This document shows, piece by piece, positions 27,243 through 37,064 of a stretch of 64,000 nucleotides of DNA. The position numbers and the translations under genes are program-made. This DNA is from Candidatus Gastranaerophilales bacterium (lineage in GTDB: Bacteria > Cyanobacteriota > Vampirovibrionia > Gastranaerophilales > Gastranaerophilaceae), in the NCBI GenBank assembly GCA_947630045.1, contig CANRGC010000006.1, positions 1 to 64,000 on the forward strand, given 5' to 3'. Positions within the stretch are counted from its first letter, which is position 1; each line of letters starts with the position of its first letter. The notes below the pieces were generated by a model. That model saw only the letters and a list, made by a program, of their open reading frames with translations, searched no databases and was not told the origin of the DNA.

Positions 27243-27716
27243 TTATTTTTCTTCCTTCTTTTGCGAGTCTTCTTCGTTTCCGTAAAAGAAGGGGTTAAAA
27301 TCTTTTTTATCTTTATCGGCTTCAAAGGTGTATAAAGCGTTAAAAGAGTCGTCGGCTTTTGAAATAAATTCAAGCTCGTCAAGATTTTTATCTATTGTCA
27401 TTTCGCCTCTGTGAGCTCTTTTTGCGCTTTCATTATATGTTTGAAGCGCCGCATAGGAATTTAAAGACTGAACCGCATTTAAAACATTTCTGTTTTCAAA
27501 CATGCCTGAATTTGCAATTGCAATTTGTCTTTGAAAAGTAAGATCGGTTTTTTGGCTGTAAAAATCAACACCGAGGGTTTGTCTGTTAAATTTAGACAAA
27601 TCAACTTTTGAATAGTCAACAGATTTTTTTGAAAGAGCGGCAAATATGTCTTCAGTAACTTTTGCAGCACTTTGAGCGTCTATAATATTTTGATTATTAA
27701 TTCCGTTGACGTTCAT
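27243..27716 (-). CDS. Hypothetical protein, 157 residues
   Basis: I do not recognise it. It is a hydrophilic protein without signal peptide or membrane helix, rich in N, D, K and Q. The first 25 residues and the stretch around 95-110 look helical, and the C-terminus ends in an acidic then basic tail (EEDSQKKEEK). Evidence that it is real: AAGGAG before the ATG, a strong terminator right after the stop, and even codon use. It is monocistronic and diverges from the pyrimidine operon. Confidence 0.55.
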   Translation of the reverse strand: MNVNGINNQNIIDAQSAAKVTEDIFAALSKKSVDYSKVDLSKFNRQTLGVDFYSQKTDLTFQRQIAIANSGMFENRNVLNAVQSLNSYAALQTYNESAKRAHRGEMTIDKNLDELEFISKADDSFNALYTFEADKDKKDFNPFFYGNEEDSQKKEEK

Positions 27717-27831
27717 TTTTCTTCAATCTCCTTACATGGTATATGTCGGCAAAACCGTTTCATACTTTATATTTGAAAGGAGTTTTGTAACAAATATTTA
27801 CAAGAAACTTTAATTTTAATTTTTTGAATTG

Positions 27832-27837
27832 TATAAT
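27832..27837 (+). promoter_or_regulatory. -10 box of the pyr operon leader
   Basis: TATAAT with a predicted start near 27844. It lies before the leader mini-ORF and terminator. No strong -35 is visible. Confidence 0.5.
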
Positions 27838-27858
27838 TTTGTTGACTAAAGGGGTTTT

Positions 27859-27894
27859 ATGAATAAATTTAAGCAAAATTTAATAATAATATAA
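27859..27894 (+). CDS. Putative pyr operon leader peptide (11 residues)
   Basis: The open frame MNKFKQNLIII follows AAAGGGG, a good ribosome binding site. Its TAA stop (27892-27894) abuts the terminator stem that begins at 27895, so a ribosome finishing this peptide would cover the hairpin. This is the geometry of translation-coupled attenuators. The leader is A/U-rich. It is too short to support by coding statistics. Confidence 0.45.
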   Translation: MNKFKQNLIII

Positions 27895-27927
27895 AAAGGA
27901 AAGGCGATTTTGTCTTTCCTTTTTTTT
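27895..27927 (+). terminator. Intrinsic terminator (probable attenuator) ahead of pyrK
   Basis: AAAGGAAAGGC (27895-27905) pairs with GTCTTTCCTTT (27112 offset: 27912-27922) around a GATTTT loop, followed by a run of T up to 27927. It ends 27 bases before the pyrK ATG on the same strand as the operon. The upstream gene runs the other way, so only a leader transcript can meet it. Confidence 0.75.
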
Positions 27928-27953
27928 GACTTAAAGCACGGGTTTAAAAGAAA

Positions 27954-28664
27954 ATGAGAAAAAATCATCAAGGCACTGTAATTAAGAATATTGAAATAAA
28001 AAAAGATATTTACGAATTAAAAATAAAGTCTGACATGAAAGAGGCTTTTGCGGGGCAATTTATTTCCGTACTTTGCCCGAATAAAACGTTAAGGCGTCCG
28101 TTTAGCATTTCAAACTTTAATAACGGAGAAATTACCGTTTTATATAAATTAAAGGGAGAAGGAACAAAATATATATCAAGCCTGAAAACCGGCGATGTCA
28201 TAGACTTTTTGGGGGCGCTCGGGAACACTTTTTCTTATGAAAATACGAACTCTGCCCTTTTAATCGGCGCTGGAATCGGAATTGCGCCAATGCTCTTTTT
28301 GAAAAAAGAAATGAATGAAAAAGGAATTAAAAATTTTTTAATATCAGGGTTTAAAACAAATGAAGAAGCGCTTTTGGGCTCTGACAAAACGGTAATAGGC
28401 GGAAGCGTTATGGATAATATTGATGAAATAATTGAAAAAACAAAACCTGACACAATTTATTCTTGCGGGCCTTCAATTGTATTAAAACTTGTGTGTAAAA
28501 AGGCGGAAGAAAAAGGCTTAAAGGCTCAAGTTGCGCTTGAAAAAGTTATGGCATGCGGAATCGGAGTTTGCAGAGGCTGTGTTATAGAACTTAAAGACGG
28601 CTCAAACGCTTCTGTTTGTAAGGACGGACCTGTTTTTGAAGGCGAGGTTATACAGTGGAATTAA
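27954..28664 (+). CDS. pyrK: Dihydroorotate dehydrogenase B, electron transfer subunit
   Basis: PyrK carries electrons from the PyrD flavin to NAD+ via FAD and a 2Fe-2S cluster, giving a class 1B dihydroorotate dehydrogenase. The FAD site RRPFSISN is near residue 45, the NAD-binding GAGIGIAPMLF near 105, and the cluster cysteines lie in ACGIGVCRGC near 200 and SVCKDGPVF. Length 236 is slightly short but complete. First gene of the UMP operon, directly after the attenuator-like terminator. Overlaps pyrD by 10 bases. Confidence 0.93.
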   Translation: MRKNHQGTVIKNIEIKKDIYELKIKSDMKEAFAGQFISVLCPNKTLRRPFSISNFNNGEITVLYKLKGEGTKYISSLKTGDVIDFLGALGNTFSYENTNSALLIGAGIGIAPMLFLKKEMNEKGIKNFLISGFKTNEEALLGSDKTVIGGSVMDNIDEIIEKTKPDTIYSCGPSIVLKLVCKKAEEKGLKAQVALEKVMACGIGVCRGCVIELKDGSNASVCKDGPVFEGEVIQWN

Positions 28665-29569
28665 GAGTTAATTTAAACGGTTTTGAATTAAAAAATCCGA
28701 TTATGACAGCCTCGGGAACATACGGATATGCTGACGAATATGAAGTTTTTACCGACGTTTCAAATATAGGGGCGATTGTTACAAAGGCAATCTCAATTAA
28801 TCCGAAAAAAGGAAATCAGGGAGAAAGAATTTTTGAAACAACGTCAGGCATGATAAACAGAATTGGGCTTGAAAACCTTGGAATTAAAGAGTTTATCGAA
28901 AAGAAACTGCCGATTTTAAAAGAAAAAAATATAAATTTTGTAATGAATCTTGCAGGTTCAAGTTTTGAAGATTACGTCGAAGCCGCAAAAATTGCCCAAA
29001 AAGAAGGAATAAAAGCAATTGAGGTTAACGTTTCATGCCCGAATGTTAAAGAGGGATGTTTGGAATTCGGGGTTGACCCTTCTTCTCTTTCAAAGCTTAT
29101 AAGCGCCATAAGAGAAGTCTATCTCGGCTTTTTAATCGTTAAGTTAACTCCAAATGTTTCAGATATTGAATCTTTGGCGCTGTCTTGCGAAAAAGCAGGC
29201 GCAAACGCAATAAGCGCAATAAATACACTAAAGGGGCTCGGAGTTAAAATTGAAATTCTTCCGAACGGAGAAATAAAAAAAACAAGCGTGCAGGGCGGCT
29301 TGAGCGGAAGGTGTATAAAACCCGTTGCGCTTTCAATGGTAAAAAGAATTTATTCCGTGGTAAAAATTCCAATTATCGGAATTGGCGGAATTTCTTGCCT
29401 TGAAGATGTTTTGGAATTTTTCTCCGTCGGGGCTGAGGCTGTTCAAATCGGAACGGAAAACTTTACAAACCCCGCAATAACGGGGCAAATTATTCAAGAT
29501 TTAGAAAAATTGTTATTAAAACTAAATTTAAAAAGTATTGACGAATTAAAAAGGAAATTAAGAGAATGA
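28655..29569 (+). CDS. pyrD: Dihydroorotate dehydrogenase B, catalytic subunit
   Basis: This FMN-containing barrel enzyme oxidises dihydroorotate to orotate. Typical class 1 motifs are NPIMTASGTYGYADEY, AIEVNVSCPNVKEG near residue 125 (in the substrate loop), VKLTPNVSDI, SGRCIKP and IIGIGGISCLEDVLEF. Pairing with pyrK makes it the NAD-dependent 1B type. The start codon is GTG at 28655, inside the last codons of pyrK. pyrE overlaps it by 4 bases. Confidence 0.95.
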   Translation: MELRVNLNGFELKNPIMTASGTYGYADEYEVFTDVSNIGAIVTKAISINPKKGNQGERIFETTSGMINRIGLENLGIKEFIEKKLPILKEKNINFVMNLAGSSFEDYVEAAKIAQKEGIKAIEVNVSCPNVKEGCLEFGVDPSSLSKLISAIREVYLGFLIVKLTPNVSDIESLALSCEKAGANAISAINTLKGLGVKIEILPNGEIKKTSVQGGLSGRCIKPVALSMVKRIYSVVKIPIIGIGGISCLEDVLEFFSVGAEAVQIGTENFTNPAITGQIIQDLEKLLLKLNLKSIDELKRKLRE

Positions 29570-30135
29570 ACGACGTTAAAGAACTTTTGATTAAAGCGGA
29601 CGGGCTTTTAAAAGGACACTTTTGCCTGACTTCGGGGCTGCACTCAGATACTTATTTTCAGTGTGCAAAACTGTATCAGTATCCTGATATTGTTGAAAAA
29701 ATCGGCAAGGAACTTGCAAAAAAGCTTGAAAATATTGAATATGACACTATAATCGCTCCGGCAATCGGCGCAATAATTTTCGGATATGAAGTTGCAAAAC
29801 AGGCGGGAAAAAGAAATCTTTTTGTTGAAAGAAAAGATGACATAATGCAATTAAGAAGGGGTTACACCCTAAAAAAAGGCGAAAGAGTTGTTATTATTGA
29901 AGACGTTATTACAACCGCAAGAACAATCTTTGAGACAATTGACGCCATAAAAGAATATGAAGCGGAAATTATGGGCGTGGGCTGTATTGTGGACAGAACC
30001 CAAGGCAAGCTTGATGATAAGCTAAAAATTAATTCGCTTTTAAAAATTGACCCTGTTGTCTATAACCCTGATGATTGCCCGCTTTGCAGACAGGGAATTG
30101 AAATTGTAAAACCGGGAAGCAGAAAAGGCAAATAA
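29566..30135 (+). CDS. pyrE: Orotate phosphoribosyltransferase
   Basis: It joins orotate to PRPP to give OMP. The PRPP-binding motif VVIIEDVITTART is near residue 107; FVERKD and RRGYTLKKGERV lie just before it. The C-terminal third resembles the long pyrE type with CPLCRQGIEIVKPGS at the end, found in several anaerobes. ATGA overlap with pyrD; its stop shares a base with the pyrB start (TAATG). Confidence 0.93.
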   Translation: MNDVKELLIKADGLLKGHFCLTSGLHSDTYFQCAKLYQYPDIVEKIGKELAKKLENIEYDTIIAPAIGAIIFGYEVAKQAGKRNLFVERKDDIMQLRRGYTLKKGERVVIIEDVITTARTIFETIDAIKEYEAEIMGVGCIVDRTQGKLDDKLKINSLLKIDPVVYNPDDCPLCRQGIEIVKPGSRKGK

Positions 30136-31019
30136 TGAGAGATTTAATAAAAATCGAATATCTTACAAACGCTGAAATTGAAGGTTTGATGAGCCTTGCG
30201 CAAGAATATAAGAACGGCAAAAAATCAAACTTTTCAAATCATCACTGCGCTTTAATGTTTTTTGAAAATTCAACAAGAACAATGTTTTCTTTTGAATGTG
30301 CCCTGAATAAGCTTGGGGCTTATTCATACATTTTTGATAACGCAAAATCATCAATTTTAAAAGGGGAAGAAATTTTTGACACAATTAATAACCTTTGTGC
30401 AATCGGAATTTCAACCTTTATAACAAGAACGGCAAAAGAAGGGTTTATTGACGAATTAAAGAAACTTGAATTTTACAAACCGATAAACTTTATAAATGCG
30501 GGCGAAGGGAAAAGTTCTCACCCGACACAAGCCCTTCTTGATTATTTCACAATGAAAGAAAAATTGAAGGATGTTAAAAATAAAAAAATTGTAATCGTGG
30601 GCGATATTAAACATTCAAGAGTTGCAAAATCAAACATAAAACTTTTATCTAAAATGGGGGCAAACCTTGTTTTGTGTGCGCCGAAATATTTTACCGAAGA
30701 AATTGACGGGGCGGAATATGTTCCGAATTTGAACGAGGCGCTTTTAGGCGCAGATGTTGTTATGTGTCTCAGAATACAAAAAGAAAGATTAAATGAAGAA
30801 GTCAGCATTCAAGATTACATCAAAAACTATCAAATAAATTCGGTAAATATGCCAAAAGACGCAATTTTAATGCACCCCGGACCCGTTAACAGAGATGTTG
30901 AAATTTCAAACGAACTTATAAATTCAAAATACGGCAGAACAATATTAAATCAGGCAGAAAACGGCGTTTATGTCAGAATGGCGGTTTTAGACAGTGTTTT
31001 TAAGGGGGATGAGGCATGA
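30135..31019 (+). CDS. pyrB: Aspartate carbamoyltransferase, catalytic subunit
   Basis: It condenses carbamoyl phosphate with aspartate, the committed step of pyrimidine synthesis. The carbamoyl-phosphate site is FFENSTRTMFSFE near residue 40, the bridging motif is SSHPTQALLD near 123, and the C-terminal motif is HPGPVNRDVEIS near 247. The usual STRTR is STRTM here; the residues known to contact carbamoyl phosphate are kept. No pyrI regulatory chain is in the operon, so an unregulated trimer is likely. Confidence 0.92.
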   Translation: MRDLIKIEYLTNAEIEGLMSLAQEYKNGKKSNFSNHHCALMFFENSTRTMFSFECALNKLGAYSYIFDNAKSSILKGEEIFDTINNLCAIGISTFITRTAKEGFIDELKKLEFYKPINFINAGEGKSSHPTQALLDYFTMKEKLKDVKNKKIVIVGDIKHSRVAKSNIKLLSKMGANLVLCAPKYFTEEIDGAEYVPNLNEALLGADVVMCLRIQKERLNEEVSIQDYIKNYQINSVNMPKDAILMHPGPVNRDVEISNELINSKYGRTILNQAENGVYVRMAVLDSVFKGDEA

Positions 31020-31975
31020 AAATTCCATCGTTAATTGATATGCACACCCATTTAAGAGAGCCGGGGTTTGTTGAGAAAGAAACAATCGAAACAGGTCTGA
31101 AAGCCGCAATAAAAGGGGGATATGGCGCAGTTATCGCAATGCCCAATACATTTCCCGTTAATGACAACAAGGAAGTTACAAAACTTATTTTGGAAAAGGC
31201 TAAAAAATTTGAAAATGAAATTTCTCTTTTGCCTGCAGGCGCTGTTACATACGGCTTAAACTCGGATGATTTAACAGATTTTGCCTCACTAAAAGAAGCG
31301 GGATGTATTGCTTTTTCAAACGACGGAATGTCAACAAGAAGGGTTGAAGACGCCCTTAAAACAGGCGAATTGATTTTATCTCACCTTGAAGATGAAACAA
31401 ATGAGGCAATTTATCAAATTGAAATTTTTGAAAAGCTTGTAAGGCAAGGGTTTTCACCAAGGCTGCATTTTTGTCATGTTTCCAAAAAATCTACGATTGA
31501 TGTTATAAGAAATGCAAAGGCACGCAAATTAAATATTACGGCGGAAACTTGCCCTCATTATTTTACATTTACCGATAAAGACAGGGATGAAACAGGCAGA
31601 TTTAAAATGAACCCGCCGCTTGGTCTTGAAGAAGATTTGAATGCGGTAATCGAAGGGGTCAAAGACGGCACAATTGATGTTATTTCAACAGACCATGCGC
31701 CCCATACAAAAGAAGAAAAATTAAGACCTTATAAAAGTTCGCCAAACGGAATAGTCGGGCTTGAAACGGCGTTTTCGCTTACTTTTATGAAATTCGGTCT
31801 GGAATTAACGCTTGAAAAAATGGCTTTTAGTCCAAGAAAAATTTTAAATATTAATCCAAAAAAAGAGGTTGAAATTGACCTTGATGAGGTTTGGAAAGTT
31901 GAAGGGGAAAAATTTCAATCAAAGTGCAAAATTTCCCCTTATGAAGGTATGATATTAAAAGGGAAGGTGTTATGA
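31016..31975 (+). CDS. pyrC: Dihydroorotase (compact form)
   Basis: It closes carbamoyl aspartate to dihydroorotate. The metal-binding motifs of the amidohydrolase fold are present: DMHTHLREPG at residues 8-17, HFCHVS near 152, ETCPHYF near 178 and STDHAPHTKEE near 223. At 319 residues it is about 100 shorter than class I enzymes. The protein starts almost at the HxH motif, so the N-terminal half of the usual beta-sandwich domain is missing, while the C-terminal part (ISPYEGMILKGKVL) remains. Four-base overlaps on both sides. Confidence 0.9.
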   Translation: MKIPSLIDMHTHLREPGFVEKETIETGLKAAIKGGYGAVIAMPNTFPVNDNKEVTKLILEKAKKFENEISLLPAGAVTYGLNSDDLTDFASLKEAGCIAFSNDGMSTRRVEDALKTGELILSHLEDETNEAIYQIEIFEKLVRQGFSPRLHFCHVSKKSTIDVIRNAKARKLNITAETCPHYFTFTDKDRDETGRFKMNPPLGLEEDLNAVIEGVKDGTIDVISTDHAPHTKEEKLRPYKSSPNGIVGLETAFSLTFMKFGLELTLEKMAFSPRKILNINPKKEVEIDLDEVWKVEGEKFQSKCKISPYEGMILKGKVL

Positions 31976-32709
31976 ACATAAAAGAAAAAATCGTTTTGGC
32001 GCTTGATGTTGAAACAATTGAAGAAGCAAAAAAATTAGTGGATGAACTATATGAATATACGGGAACTTTTAAAGTCGGTCTGCAATTATTTTGCGGCTAT
32101 GGGCTTGAAATTATAAATTATATTCTCTCTAAAAATTCAAATTTCTTTTTGGACGTTAAGCTCCATGACATCCCGAACACCGTTCAAAAGGCGGCGGAAA
32201 ACGTTATTTTAAGAGGGGCGAACTTTTTTAACGTACATGCGACAGGCGGGCTTGAAATGATGAAGGCGGCAAGAAAAGGGGCTGATACAGCGAGTGAAAA
32301 ATTGGGCAGAAAAAAAGCCTTAATTCTTGGTGTTACAATGCTCACAAGCATTTCCCAAGACGTTTTGGATAATGAATTTATGATAAATAAAAATGTTTCA
32401 GATTTTGCAATTCATCTTGCAAAGCTTGCCAAAGAAGCGGGACTTGACGGGGTTGTGGCTTCGGCTCTCGAGGTTGAAAAAATTAAAAATGAACTCGGAA
32501 GTGATTTCAAGGTGTTATGCCCCGGAATTCGCCCGAAATGGAGCCTGACAGATGACCAAAAAAGAATTGCAACTCCTTATGAAGCAATTAAAAGAGGCGC
32601 AGATTACATTGTAATCGGGCGTGCTGTTACAAAAAGCGAAAACCCGAAAGAAGCAATGATAAAAATATATGAAGAAATTAAAGAAGGTGAATTATGCTCG
32701 CAACATTAA
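31972..32709 (+). CDS. pyrF: Orotidine 5'-phosphate decarboxylase
   Basis: It gives UMP, the operon's end product. The catalytic array is in FLDVKLHDIPNTVQKAA (residues about 60-76), with ALDVETIEEA at the N-terminus, GVTMLTS near 120, and the phosphate-binding CPGIRPKW and YIVIGRAVTKSENP near the end. Length 245 is standard for the short bacterial form. The stop overlaps carA by 16 bases. Confidence 0.96.
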   Translation: MNIKEKIVLALDVETIEEAKKLVDELYEYTGTFKVGLQLFCGYGLEIINYILSKNSNFFLDVKLHDIPNTVQKAAENVILRGANFFNVHATGGLEMMKAARKGADTASEKLGRKKALILGVTMLTSISQDVLDNEFMINKNVSDFAIHLAKLAKEAGLDGVVASALEVEKIKNELGSDFKVLCPGIRPKWSLTDDQKRIATPYEAIKRGADYIVIGRAVTKSENPKEAMIKIYEEIKEGELCSQH

Positions 32710-33815
32710 TATTAGAGGACGGAAGTGTCTATAAAGGCGAACAATTCGGCGCATGCGGCACAAAAATCGGCGAAATTGTTTTTAATACTTCAATGACGGG
32801 GTATCAGGAAATTTTGACCGATCCGAGTTATGCAAATCAGATAATAATTATGACTTATCCTGAAATCGGAAATTACGGAATAAATGAAGAAGACTTTGAG
32901 TCGTATGCTCCCAAATGTCTGGGGTTTGTGGTTAAAAAGAACTGTAAGAACGATTCTCACTATAAATCAAAAGAAACCCTTTCAAATTATCTTGAAAGAA
33001 ACGGTGTTATCGGAATTGAAGGAATTGACACAAGAAGCCTTGTTATCAAAATAAGAGAAAAAGGCACAATGAGATGTATGCTTACAACCGATGAAATTAA
33101 AAGCGAAAGCGAAATTGTTGAAAAAATCGGTGAAATTTGTACGCATAACGCCGACAAAGATGTCGTATTGCATGTTTCACCGAAAGAGAAATATGTAGTG
33201 AACGAGGAAGGGGAAATTGACCTTGCTTTGATTGATTACGGCTGTAAGTCGGGAATTATTAATTCGCTTGCCGAAAGAGGCTGTAAGGTGACTGTTTATC
33301 CCGCTTCCGTGAGTGCGTCCGAAATTTTGGATAACGGGCACAAAAACCTGTTTCTTTCAAACGGCCCCGGTGACCCTGCCGATTGTGAGATTGAACTTGA
33401 AACAATCAAAAACCTTATAGGGAAAATTCCGATTTTCGGAATATGTTTGGGATATCAACTTTTGTCCATTGCACTCGGCGCAAAAACTTATAAACTAAAA
33501 TACGGCCACAGAGGCGGAAATCACCCCGTAATTAACCTTCAATCGGGTCAGGTTATGGTAACTTCGCAAAACCACGGATATGCCGTTGATACGGAGAGTT
33601 TATCCGAAATTATGAGGGCGACATATAAAAATTTGAACGATGACACTATGGAAGGTTTTGACGCCGAAAGACTAAAGATTTTTGCCGTTCAGTTTCACCC
33701 CGAAGCAAAACCGGGACCAAATGACGCAGCGGTGATTTTTGATGAGTGGATAAAATTAATGGAAGAATTTCATAAAAACCCTGTTAGAAAAGCAGATGAC
33801 ATGGCAAACGTGTAA
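32694..33815 (+). CDS. carA: Carbamoyl-phosphate synthase, small (glutaminase) subunit
   Basis: It releases ammonia from glutamine for the large subunit. The C-terminal class I amidotransferase has LSNGPGDPAD near 222, the nucleophile cysteine in FGICLGYQL near 249, GHRGGNHPV, and the catalytic histidine-glutamate in VQFHPEAKPGP near 338. Length 373 is typical. Because it is in the pyr operon and no arginine genes are near, it may supply both pathways but is set up for pyrimidines. Confidence 0.97.
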   Translation: MLATLILEDGSVYKGEQFGACGTKIGEIVFNTSMTGYQEILTDPSYANQIIIMTYPEIGNYGINEEDFESYAPKCLGFVVKKNCKNDSHYKSKETLSNYLERNGVIGIEGIDTRSLVIKIREKGTMRCMLTTDEIKSESEIVEKIGEICTHNADKDVVLHVSPKEKYVVNEEGEIDLALIDYGCKSGIINSLAERGCKVTVYPASVSASEILDNGHKNLFLSNGPGDPADCEIELETIKNLIGKIPIFGICLGYQLLSIALGAKTYKLKYGHRGGNHPVINLQSGQVMVTSQNHGYAVDTESLSEIMRATYKNLNDDTMEGFDAERLKIFAVQFHPEAKPGPNDAAVIFDEWIKLMEEFHKNPVRKADDMANV

Positions 33816-33824
33816 GAGGTTAAA

Positions 33825-36800
33825 ATGGGAAAGAATATAAACATAAAAAAAGTTATGGTGATTGGCTCAGGCCCGATTGTAATCGGTCAGGCGGCGGAAT
33901 TTGACTATGCGGGCGTGCAGGCATGCAGAGCACTTAAAGAAGAAGGAATTAAAGTTGTTCTTGTAAACTCAAATCCGGCAACGATTATGACGGATGAAAA
34001 CATTGCGGATAAAGTCTATATTGAGCCTTTAGAAATCACAATGCTTGAAGACATTATCCAAAAAGAACGCCCTGACGGCTTAATTGCTTCTCTCGGGGGG
34101 CAGACCGGTTTAAACCTTGCAATGGAACTTCACAAGGCTGGAATATTGGAAAAATATAACCTTAAACTTTTGGGCACAAACATTGACTCAATTAACAAAG
34201 CCGAAGACAGAGAACTTTTCAAAAACCTTATGAAAGAGATAAATGAACCCGTTCCCGAGTCTGAAATTGTTTCAAACCACAAAGACGCTCTGGCGTTTGC
34301 CGAAAAAATCGGCTTTCCCATAATAATTCGTCCCGCATTCACTCTCGGCGGCTCCGGCGGCGGAATTGCAAAAAATGCGGAAGAATATGAACAGTATGTT
34401 ACAACAGGGCTTCAACAATCGCCGATAAATCAAATTCTTGTTGAAAAGAGCATTGCGGGCTTTAAGGAAGTTGAATATGAAGTTATGCGTGATTCAAACG
34501 ACACCTGTATTACAATTTGTAATATGGAAAACATTGACCCGATTGGAATTCACACGGGCGATTCATACGTTGTTGCGCCGAGTCAAACCCTTACAAATAA
34601 CGAATATCAAATGTTAAGAACTTCCGCCATAAAAATTATTCGTTCTCTTAAAATTGAGGGGGGCTGTAATGTTCAATTTGCGCTTGATACAACTTCAAAC
34701 CAATATTATGTAATTGAGGTTAACCCCCGTGTTTCAAGGTCATCCGCCCTTGCAAGCAAGGCTACGGGTTATCCTATCGCAAAAGTGACAACAAAAATTG
34801 CAATAGGATATAAACTTCATGAAATTCAAAACGCAATTACCAAAAAAACGGTTGCCGCATTCGAGCCCAGCCTTGATTATGTTGTAATAAAAATTCCGAA
34901 ATGGCCGTTTGATAAATTTGCAAACGGGGACAGAATTCTCGGCACAAAAATGAAAGCAACAGGCGAAATTATGTCAATAGGAAGGACATTTAACAGCGCC
35001 TTTAAAAAGGCAGTTGCCTCTTTGGAAGAAAAAGTGCCGAGCTTGGCGTTAAGGGAAGAATTTGAAAAACTGACATACGGCGAACTTTTAGACGAGCTTT
35101 CAATTCAAGACGACAGAAGAATTTTCAGAGTTTCCGAAGCCATAAAAAGGGGAATTGAACCTGAAACAATCTGCAATATTACAAAGATTGATTTTTGGTT
35201 TATTTCAAAAATTAAGGAAATAATTGATTTCGGAAAGTCGCTTGCCTGCATGGAGCTTACAAAAGAAAAATATATTGAAGCAAAAGAAATGGGCTTTTTA
35301 GATTGCGAAATTTCAAAGCTGACAGGCAAAAGCGAGGAAGAATTTAAGGCATTTAATGTTGAGGCTTCGTTTAAAATAGTAGACACCTGTGCTGCGGAAT
35401 TTTCGGCAAAAACTCCTTATTTCTATTCAACCTATAATGAAGAATGCGAACTTTCGGCTCTAAAAGGAAACAGTAACAAAAAAGGAAGCATTCTTGTTTT
35501 GGGTTCGGGTCCGATTAGAATAGGTCAAGGAATTGAATTTGACTACTGTTCCGTGCATGCCTCATGGGCAATTACAAACAACGGATATGAATCTGTCATG
35601 ATTAATTCAAACCCCGAGACACTTTCAACCGACTTTGATATAGCTGACAGACTTTATTTTGAACCTATGCACATTGAAAACGTTATGAACGTTGTCAAAA
35701 AGGAAAACCCGATAGGCGTTATGGTTCAATTTGGCGGACAAACGGCAATAAATCTCGCTTCCAAACTTGAGGAAAGAGGAGTTAAAATTCTCGGAACAAG
35801 CTTAGAGAGCATTAATGCGGTAGAAGACAGAAAAGTTTTTGAAAAGCTTTTAAGAGAATTAAAAATTCCTCAACCTAAAGGAAGAGGGGTAAAATCTGCT
35901 GCAGAAGCGCTGGATGCCACAAAAGAACTCGGTTACCCCGTTCTTGTTCGCCCGAGTTACGTAATCGGCGGAAGGGGAATGCAGGTTGTATATAACGATG
36001 AAGAGCTTTTAACTTATATAAACGAGGCGTTTAAATTTTCAACCGAACACCCCGTTTTGATTGACCAATATTTGGAAGGTCAAGAAGTTGAACTTGACGC
36101 AATTTCAGACGGAAAAGAAGTTTTAATCCCCGGAATTTGCGAACATATTGAGCGTGCGGGCGTTCACTCAGGCGATTCCATGAGCATATACCCGAGCCGA
36201 AATATTTCGAGAAAACACGAAAAAACCCTTGTTAAATATGCAAAAGAAATTGCCAAAAAGACAAAAATCGTCGGGCTTATGAATATTCAATTCATTATAA
36301 AAGACGATGTTGTTTATGTAATCGAAGTTAACCCCAGAGCCTCAAGAACCGTTCCTATCATGTCAAAGGTGACGGGCATTCCGATGGCAAAGATTGCCGT
36401 TAACGTAATTTTAGGAAAATCTTTGCGCTCTCACGGGTTTGGGGTTGGTTTATATCGAAAAACAAATCTTGTCTGCGTAAAAATGCCGATATTCAGTTTC
36501 CAAAAATTAAACAGAATTGACCCCGCACTTGCACCTGAGATGAAATCTACAGGCGAGGTTTTGGGAATTGATACAAACTATAAACGTGCGCTGTTAAAAG
36601 CCTTTATAGCGGGCGGGTTTAAATTCGGTCAAAGAAAACAAAGAGTTCTTGTTTCTTTAAATGACCACTATAAAAAGCCCGCTTTAAAAATCATCAAAAA
36701 AATGTTTGCTCAGGGATATTTCATTATGGCAACCTGGGGAACGCATAAATTCCTTGAAAAAAACGGAGTTCCGTCTAAAATGATTGAAAAATTTATGATA

Positions 36801-37064
36801 GATAAACTTCAAAAACGTATGAAAGAAGGGCGTTTAAGCTTTGTTATCAACACTCCGACTCTGGGCAAAAATTCTCAAACCGCAGGTTTTCAGATAAGAA
36901 CAATTGCGGAAATGTATTGTATTCCTTGCTTTACAAGCATAGACACCGCAAGAGCATATTTGAGCGCAGTTAAAACATACGATAAAAAAGCCCGTCTCAC
37001 GGCAGATACGGTTTCAAACTACAGAAAAAGACATTTTTTTGATTTTTTAATAAAAAACAAATAA
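33825..37064 (+). CDS. carB: Carbamoyl-phosphate synthase, large subunit
   Basis: It makes carbamoyl phosphate from bicarbonate, ammonia and two ATP. The protein (1079 residues) shows the ancient duplication: two ATP-grasp halves beginning with VIGSGPIVIGQAAEFDYAG and VLGSGPIRIGQGIEFDYCS, each with NSNPAT/NSNPET, GGQT and EVNPRVSRSSAL/EVNPRASRTVPI motifs. A C-terminal allosteric domain follows (from about residue 935). AAGAGG precedes the ATG, 9 bases after carA. It ends the operon before a clear terminator. Confidence 0.97.
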   Translation: MGKNINIKKVMVIGSGPIVIGQAAEFDYAGVQACRALKEEGIKVVLVNSNPATIMTDENIADKVYIEPLEITMLEDIIQKERPDGLIASLGGQTGLNLAMELHKAGILEKYNLKLLGTNIDSINKAEDRELFKNLMKEINEPVPESEIVSNHKDALAFAEKIGFPIIIRPAFTLGGSGGGIAKNAEEYEQYVTTGLQQSPINQILVEKSIAGFKEVEYEVMRDSNDTCITICNMENIDPIGIHTGDSYVVAPSQTLTNNEYQMLRTSAIKIIRSLKIEGGCNVQFALDTTSNQYYVIEVNPRVSRSSALASKATGYPIAKVTTKIAIGYKLHEIQNAITKKTVAAFEPSLDYVVIKIPKWPFDKFANGDRILGTKMKATGEIMSIGRTFNSAFKKAVASLEEKVPSLALREEFEKLTYGELLDELSIQDDRRIFRVSEAIKRGIEPETICNITKIDFWFISKIKEIIDFGKSLACMELTKEKYIEAKEMGFLDCEISKLTGKSEEEFKAFNVEASFKIVDTCAAEFSAKTPYFYSTYNEECELSALKGNSNKKGSILVLGSGPIRIGQGIEFDYCSVHASWAITNNGYESVMINSNPETLSTDFDIADRLYFEPMHIENVMNVVKKENPIGVMVQFGGQTAINLASKLEERGVKILGTSLESINAVEDRKVFEKLLRELKIPQPKGRGVKSAAEALDATKELGYPVLVRPSYVIGGRGMQVVYNDEELLTYINEAFKFSTEHPVLIDQYLEGQEVELDAISDGKEVLIPGICEHIERAGVHSGDSMSIYPSRNISRKHEKTLVKYAKEIAKKTKIVGLMNIQFIIKDDVVYVIEVNPRASRTVPIMSKVTGIPMAKIAVNVILGKSLRSHGFGVGLYRKTNLVCVKMPIFSFQKLNRIDPALAPEMKSTGEVLGIDTNYKRALLKAFIAGGFKFGQRKQRVLVSLNDHYKKPALKIIKKMFAQGYFIMATWGTHKFLEKNGVPSKMIEKFMIDKLQKRMKEGRLSFVINTPTLGKNSQTAGFQIRTIAEMYCIPCFTSIDTARAYLSAVKTYDKKARLTADTVSNYRKRHFFDFLIKNK

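Follow-up and report, generated by a model that had tools for sequence, protein, structure and literature searches.

How a single short leader could adjust the expression of a complete UMP pathway is the question raised by a locus in the 64,000 nucleotides of Candidatus Gastranaerophilales DNA analysed here (contig CANRGC010000006.1, hereafter the window). Eight UMP genes, from pyrK to carB (27954–37064), follow one another with adjacent frames that overlap or lie at most 10 nt apart, and a single transcript is therefore likely; the proposal of an earlier note on this sequence that one leader serves all eight genes fits this arrangement. The next gene upstream of the leader (27243–27716) is on the opposite strand, so the terminator at 27893 does not belong to it. 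This divergent neighbour (−, 157 aa) had no NCBIfam match, yet a similar upstream region recurs in several relatives. Here, we report that the leader (Table 1) is probably a transcription attenuator of minimal size, coupled to translation and serving the UMP operon as a whole, similar to E. coli pyrBI in its action and different from it in anatomy.

Table 1. Positions of the leader elements and UMP genes in the window, with the basis of each assignment.
Feature	Position	Strand	Basis
−10 promoter element TATAAT	27832–27837	+	sequence
Shine-Dalgarno-like AAAGGGG of the mini-ORF (purine-rich)	27848–27854	+	sequence
Mini-ORF, 11 codons and TAA, peptide MNKFKQNLIII	27859–27894	+	sequence; layout also in relatives
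Intrinsic terminator hairpin (attenuator), polypurine 5' arm, U-tailed	27893–27924	+	folding; compensatory changes
Pyrimidine tract UUUUGUCUUUCCUUUUUUUU, 19/20 U/C: loop, 3' arm and U-tract	27908–27927	+	sequence
pyrK, dihydroorotate dehydrogenase electron transfer subunit	27954–28664	+	best NCBIfam match 170 bits, below curated cut-off of 219
pyrD	28655–29569	+	NF005574, 352.5 bits, above cut-off
pyrE	29566–30135	+	TIGR01367, 197.8 bits, above cut-off
pyrB	30135–31019	+	NF002032, 297.4 bits, above cut-off
pyrC	31016–31975	+	best matches are dihydroorotases, all below cut-offs
pyrF	31972–32709	+	NF001273, 265.8 bits, above cut-off
carA	32694–33815	+	TIGR01368, 465.9 bits, above cut-off
carB	33825–37064	+	TIGR01369, 1488.2 bits, above cut-off

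The elements that the earlier note had placed ahead of pyrK, a TATAAT box, a Shine-Dalgarno sequence, an 11-codon frame and a terminator, were each found where it had put them. The −35 element is weak, with a best match of 3/6. The hairpin (−15.1 kcal/mol) is the sole terminator-like site within 27600–28100, where 0.2 would be expected. Since it starts at 27893, its first two paired bases (27893–27894) are the last two bases of the stop codon (27892–27894) of the frame that opens with the ATG at 27859, and stop codon and hairpin thus touch as had been described. The order of hairpin and pyrK was also correct, but the distance of 27 bases was not: pyrK starts 29 nt past the last paired base and 26 nt past the U-tract. 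No Rfam family reached its gathering score in the window leader, and no PyrR-type element or anything else relevant was listed there at E values up to 5, in agreement with the absence of a PyrR-type binding loop noted before.

The conservation of this layout was assessed in the same bacterial family, where PyrK relatives were sought in 383 genomes. A PyrK match with E < 1e-40 was present in 125 genomes (counted by hand); G037 and G272 were set aside because their PyrK matches start mid-protein, and the other 123 leaders, representing 17 genera, were read. The named relatives are mostly Candidatus Gastranaerophilales, Melainabacteria, Cyanobacteria bacterium and uncultured bacterium. A U-tailed hairpin lies upstream of pyrK in 119 of the 123 leaders (17 genera), and of the four without one (G185, G289, G294 and G358) three have less than 280 nt of upstream sequence. 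After G310 and G077 were dropped for too little sequence before the hairpin, 117 testable leaders remained; for G112 a weaker hairpin nearer pyrK was picked by hand over the best-scoring distant one. An ATG frame of 7–16 codons ending −10 to +3 nt from the hairpin was found in 101 of the 117 leaders, where 300 dinucleotide shuffles per leader predict 15.3, and the tighter interval of −3 to +3 nt retained 74 leaders against 9.1 expected. The layout is present in at least half of the leaders in 15 of the 17 genera (binomial p ~6e-12), while only 9 of 152 strong control terminators, drawn from 464 kb made up of the window and twenty stretches of six genomes, have a mini-ORF ending at the hairpin. 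The conserved mini-ORF that had been predicted for relatives is thus present, and hairpins are kept together with the frame rather than without it, which supports the layout, though not by itself the working, of an attenuator in which a ribosome close behind polymerase blocks the hairpin.

The two genera that fail the ATG rule depart from it in different ways. In g16 the mini-ORF starts with GTG and its stop ends at +1 or +2 of the hairpin, and in g9 the stop lies 18 nt inside the hairpin. When one frame per leader was chosen with the hairpin position known, a count for which the ATG-only 101 of 117 is the controlled figure, the stop ended −9 to +7 nt from the hairpin in 107 of 117, 15–19 nt inside it in five, and in a further five (G090, G131, G164, G033 and G123) the frame ran through the hairpin, resembling pyrL. 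Frames that end inside or run through the hairpin fit ribosome blocking and not a strict rule that the stop touches the hairpin. Double-sided changes were seen in 4 of 13 base pairs of the hairpin, with all cells paired, a count limited to nine equal-length hairpins of two genera because loop differences put the base pairs out of register in a first MAFFT alignment (37 hairpins) and two rows slid in a second.

At 16 pyrK loci from other families of the class no such leader was recognised by eye, a comparison that is not clean since pyrK is often not the first gene there. In such families L210, L211, L219 and L221 have pyrK a few nt past a TATAAT-like box, as if it were leaderless and had no attenuator. 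Another observation concerns repetitive insertions resembling gcgtagggtgaaatcgagcgaagcgag, which lie immediately upstream of pyrK in L045, L059, L066 and L070; those of L066 have a visible hairpin on their upstream side. Leader L161, from G011 of genus g12, is odd in having several ATGs in ATGGGAT-like repeats.

Upstream of the mini-ORF start, 108 of the 117 leaders have a −10-like hexamer (at least 5/6), at a distance of 17–25 nt in 96 and of at most 7 nt in 6, and 85 of 117 show an SD-like motif. Short spacings are exemplified by genus g39 (TTGACA-16-TATAAT-6-ATG, a consensus promoter with just 6 nt between the −10 element and the ATG in leaders L098 and L099) and by G145, G259 and G067, which suggests that mini-ORFs of this type are leaderless. 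Judged by consensus matches, two modes of immediate translation start after the promoter would then converge on the same layout.

The peptide itself appears to be of little consequence. Disjoint nearest pairs differed by 26 synonymous and 69 nonsynonymous changes, with 21.2 ± 3.7 synonymous changes expected for changes placed without regard to position along the frame, and differences were spread about evenly over the codon positions. By sequence comparison the mini-ORF peptide is under no detectable constraint and is not conserved beyond chance; the feature that is kept is consequently where translation stops, as set by start, stop and hairpin. No shared regulatory codon cluster was seen among the 117 peptides, and many g41 peptides share the pattern M-K-x-x-L-x-K-I-E-Y. 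Compared with 202 ordinary gene starts the mini-ORFs are A-rich (0.51 vs 0.39) and C-poor (0.05 vs 0.14), and their U content does not differ (0.32 vs 0.29, p=0.09). The earlier suggestion of a U-rich leader on which polymerase is slowed therefore fails for the mini-ORF, and the demand for pyrimidines is located inside the hairpin.

That demand results from a pronounced polarity of the terminator. Its 5' arm is nearly all purine in each of the 17 genera: the core purine fraction averages 0.88 over genera and is 0.78 in the lowest, as opposed to 0.47 both in 102 control terminators (Mann-Whitney p 1.9e-10) and in 49 terminators behind long genes (p 6.5e-9), sets from which the pyr hairpin and its reverse-strand image were excluded. 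With a 5' arm of this kind the loop, 3' arm and U-tract carry a U/C run, which is unbroken over at least 12 nt in 105 of 117 leaders, compared with 4 of the 102 controls and 2 of the 49 gene-end terminators, and which spans 24 to 37 nt past the first base of the stop codon (genus means). Hairpin sequences vary among genera and the purine/pyrimidine polarity stays. A conserved U-run in the loop was also considered as the whole signal; U-runs of at least 4 in the hairpin centre were found in only 45 of 117 leaders and in 21 of 103 controls, and this weak signal was replaced by the polypurine/polypyrimidine finding. Because the 3' half consists of U and C only, completing the terminator needs UTP and CTP just as the ribosome would reach the stop codon. 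The terminator itself could thus be the pyrimidine gauge, the speed of its completion reporting UTP/CTP and a 12-codon timer ORF reading that speed, an interpretation we advance tentatively, at a little under even chances. The polarity may instead prevent base pairing between the A-rich leader and the first arm. By duplex energies, pairing of the leader with the 3'-arm sequence would amount to −5.2 kcal/mol, and g29 and g39 keep the polarity although the two pairing energies are about equal. An RNA antiterminator was rejected, the mean duplex energy of leader and 5' arm being −1.7 kcal/mol against −14.1 kcal/mol for the hairpin.

In the proposed attenuator, transcription would start about 15 nt upstream of the mini-ORF. 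As long as UTP and CTP are plentiful, polymerase would complete the hairpin while the leading ribosome was still on the 11 codons, and the hairpin would fold and end transcription. When UTP, and perhaps CTP, runs short, polymerase would slow in the pyrimidine tract of loop, 3' arm and U-tract, allowing the ribosome to get to the stop codon and cover the 5' arm, and transcription would then read through into pyrK and the seven genes behind it. The pyr leaders place the hairpin 30–50 nt after the start codon and directly behind the stop codon; from this closeness to both, termination is expected by default and read-through upon slowing in the last 20 nt of the hairpin. The ribosome step would draw on this anatomy together with published E. 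coli experiments. Li et al. 2015 (PMC4824070, available text) found in E. coli that termination fell from ~90% to <10% when the distance between a stop codon and the terminator behind it was shortened from 28 to 5 bp, and that a terminator 30 bp past the AUG still worked because the ribosome could not catch up unless polymerase paused. The footprints given there, with the ribosome extending ~10 nt ahead of the A site and polymerase covering 11–13 nt, imply that a stop-codon ribosome touches polymerase at ~25 nt. For E. coli pyrL, the available parts of PMC10135430 and PMC5021804 describe that limiting UTP pauses polymerase and that the coupled ribosome prevents the terminator from forming. For the present leader we infer translation of the mini-ORF, blocking of the hairpin by a ribosome at the mini-ORF stop, and UTP/CTP as the signal.

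Several known systems share parts of this design. The E. coli rph-pyrE attenuator is controlled by transcription-translation coupling and, like the present leader, has a frame whose end lies close to an intrinsic terminator upstream of a pyrimidine gene; in E. coli this frame is rph, the preceding gene, and here it is a dedicated mini-ORF. PyrR-controlled pyr operon leaders also carry a terminator ahead of the pyr genes, and differ from the present case, in which the leader had no Rfam match and none of 59 genomes encodes a PyrR above the cut-off. The closest likeness is to E. coli pyrBI, where a short leader ORF (pyrL) follows a TATAAT promoter, a terminator precedes the first pyrimidine gene, and a shortage of UTP slows polymerase enough for a ribosome to block the hairpin, without a repressor being needed (for pyrBI, PMC10135430 in its available text). 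However, pyrL comprises 44 codons and a stop (135 bp), runs through the terminator and is 49% U (same source), while the frames here have about 12 codons and end at the hairpin. The U/C tract of pyrBI lies ahead of the terminator, whose arms are mixed; in the hairpin of the Gastranaerophilales type the arms are polarised and the loop, 3' arm and U-tract of the terminator themselves make up the tract. All eight UMP genes here stand behind the single leader. The pyrimidine operons here thus do have a leader ORF between their promoter and terminator (101/117), but since most leaders have neither a frame through the terminator (5/117 only) nor a U-rich frame, the system is not classed as a pyrBI-type member. 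In the spacing series of PMC4824070, as far as its available text goes, a stop ~5 bp before a terminator likewise lets the ribosome suppress it, in a laboratory construct behind a full gene and without nucleotide sensing. Salmonella mgtM, according to the available part of PMC3641672, depends on conserved adenines and not on its peptide, and so shares the importance of short-ORF nucleotide composition with an unconserved peptide; mgtM senses ATP via alternative stem-loops, and that part mentions no intrinsic terminator directly next to the ORF.

The leader anatomy requires a ribosome and nothing more, and the mini-ORFs lack pyrimidine enrichment, so a ribosome might block the hairpin in response to general translation or growth state, or to curb untranslated transcripts, rather than to pyrimidine pools. 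We consider this unlikely, since the layout is specific, being seen in nearly all pyr leaders read and rarely (9/152) at strong control terminators, and since a U/C-only 3' half is unusual and not readily accounted for unless nucleotides are sensed or structure requires it. The A content of the mini-ORFs (51% vs 39% in ordinary gene starts) and the unconstrained peptide would also suit sensing of ATP, as in mgtM of Salmonella mgtCBR. Such sensing is considerably less probable: raising pyrimidine synthesis at low ATP makes little physiological sense, A-richness also keeps the leader unstructured, and the U/C-only 3' half would be left unexplained.

An RNA-binding protein or ligand could govern the hairpin, with the mini-ORF incidental, and PyrR exerts such control in other bacteria. 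One PyrR-like match of note, weak at 78.5 bits and below cut-off, was found in G011; with 0/59 genomes above the cut-off, in keeping with the lack of a PyrR-type binding loop in the note, and a best score of 21 bits in the window's own genome, as well as no Rfam match, a mini-ORF frequency far above chance and no conserved element seen besides promoter, frame and hairpin, control of this kind seems slightly less probable than ATP sensing. Classical amino-acid-sensing attenuators and metabolite-sensing arrest peptides usually take the form of a short leader peptide encoded directly ahead of a terminator, and the pattern shared by many g41 peptides could be read accordingly. Yet no regulatory codon is shared and no strong competing antiterminator pairing exists, and with synonymous changes not in excess (26 vs 21.2 ± 3.7) this reading was rejected and is given less credence still. 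The least probable alternative is that the hairpin ends a small separate transcript and that pyrK has its own promoter behind it. Nothing positive speaks for it beyond the 26 nt past the U-tract in the window, and a pyrK transcript starting past the hairpin, which would have undone the earlier proposal, is countered by hairpin-to-pyrK gaps of 12–20 nt in many relatives, too short to hold both a promoter and a ribosome binding site.

The putative translation-coupled attenuator appears to be tied to the ability to make pyrimidines. PyrB was present in 26 of the 59 genomes that are at least 90% complete, representing 16 of 36 genera, and these 26 are also the ones that have a close PyrK (compared by hand), so the leader is confined to members still making UMP. 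The remaining 33 genomes (20 of 36 genera) have no PyrB match and no close PyrK, and these genera are probably pyrimidine auxotrophs. Within the openly licensed PMC literature, taken as titles and abstract beginnings, no paper on pyrimidine regulation in the group was found, and pyrimidines are not named in the available text of PMC2965389. A pyrBI-like mode of working is already known; new relative to pyrBI are a frame that stops at the hairpin, the lack of U-richness in that frame and the polarised terminator.

The polarised terminator offers a simple sequence mark by which nucleotide-sensing attenuators may be found elsewhere, and the leader is a compact design that is testable in E. coli. 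If the gauge reading is true, clock and sensor would be fused in a leader of ~80 nt that controls the whole pathway without a repressor. If the attenuator itself operates as proposed, repressor-free, ribosome-timed control of pyrimidine synthesis would extend beyond E. coli to a distant, uncultured gut lineage, in a form far smaller than the E. coli version and spanning the complete UMP pathway.
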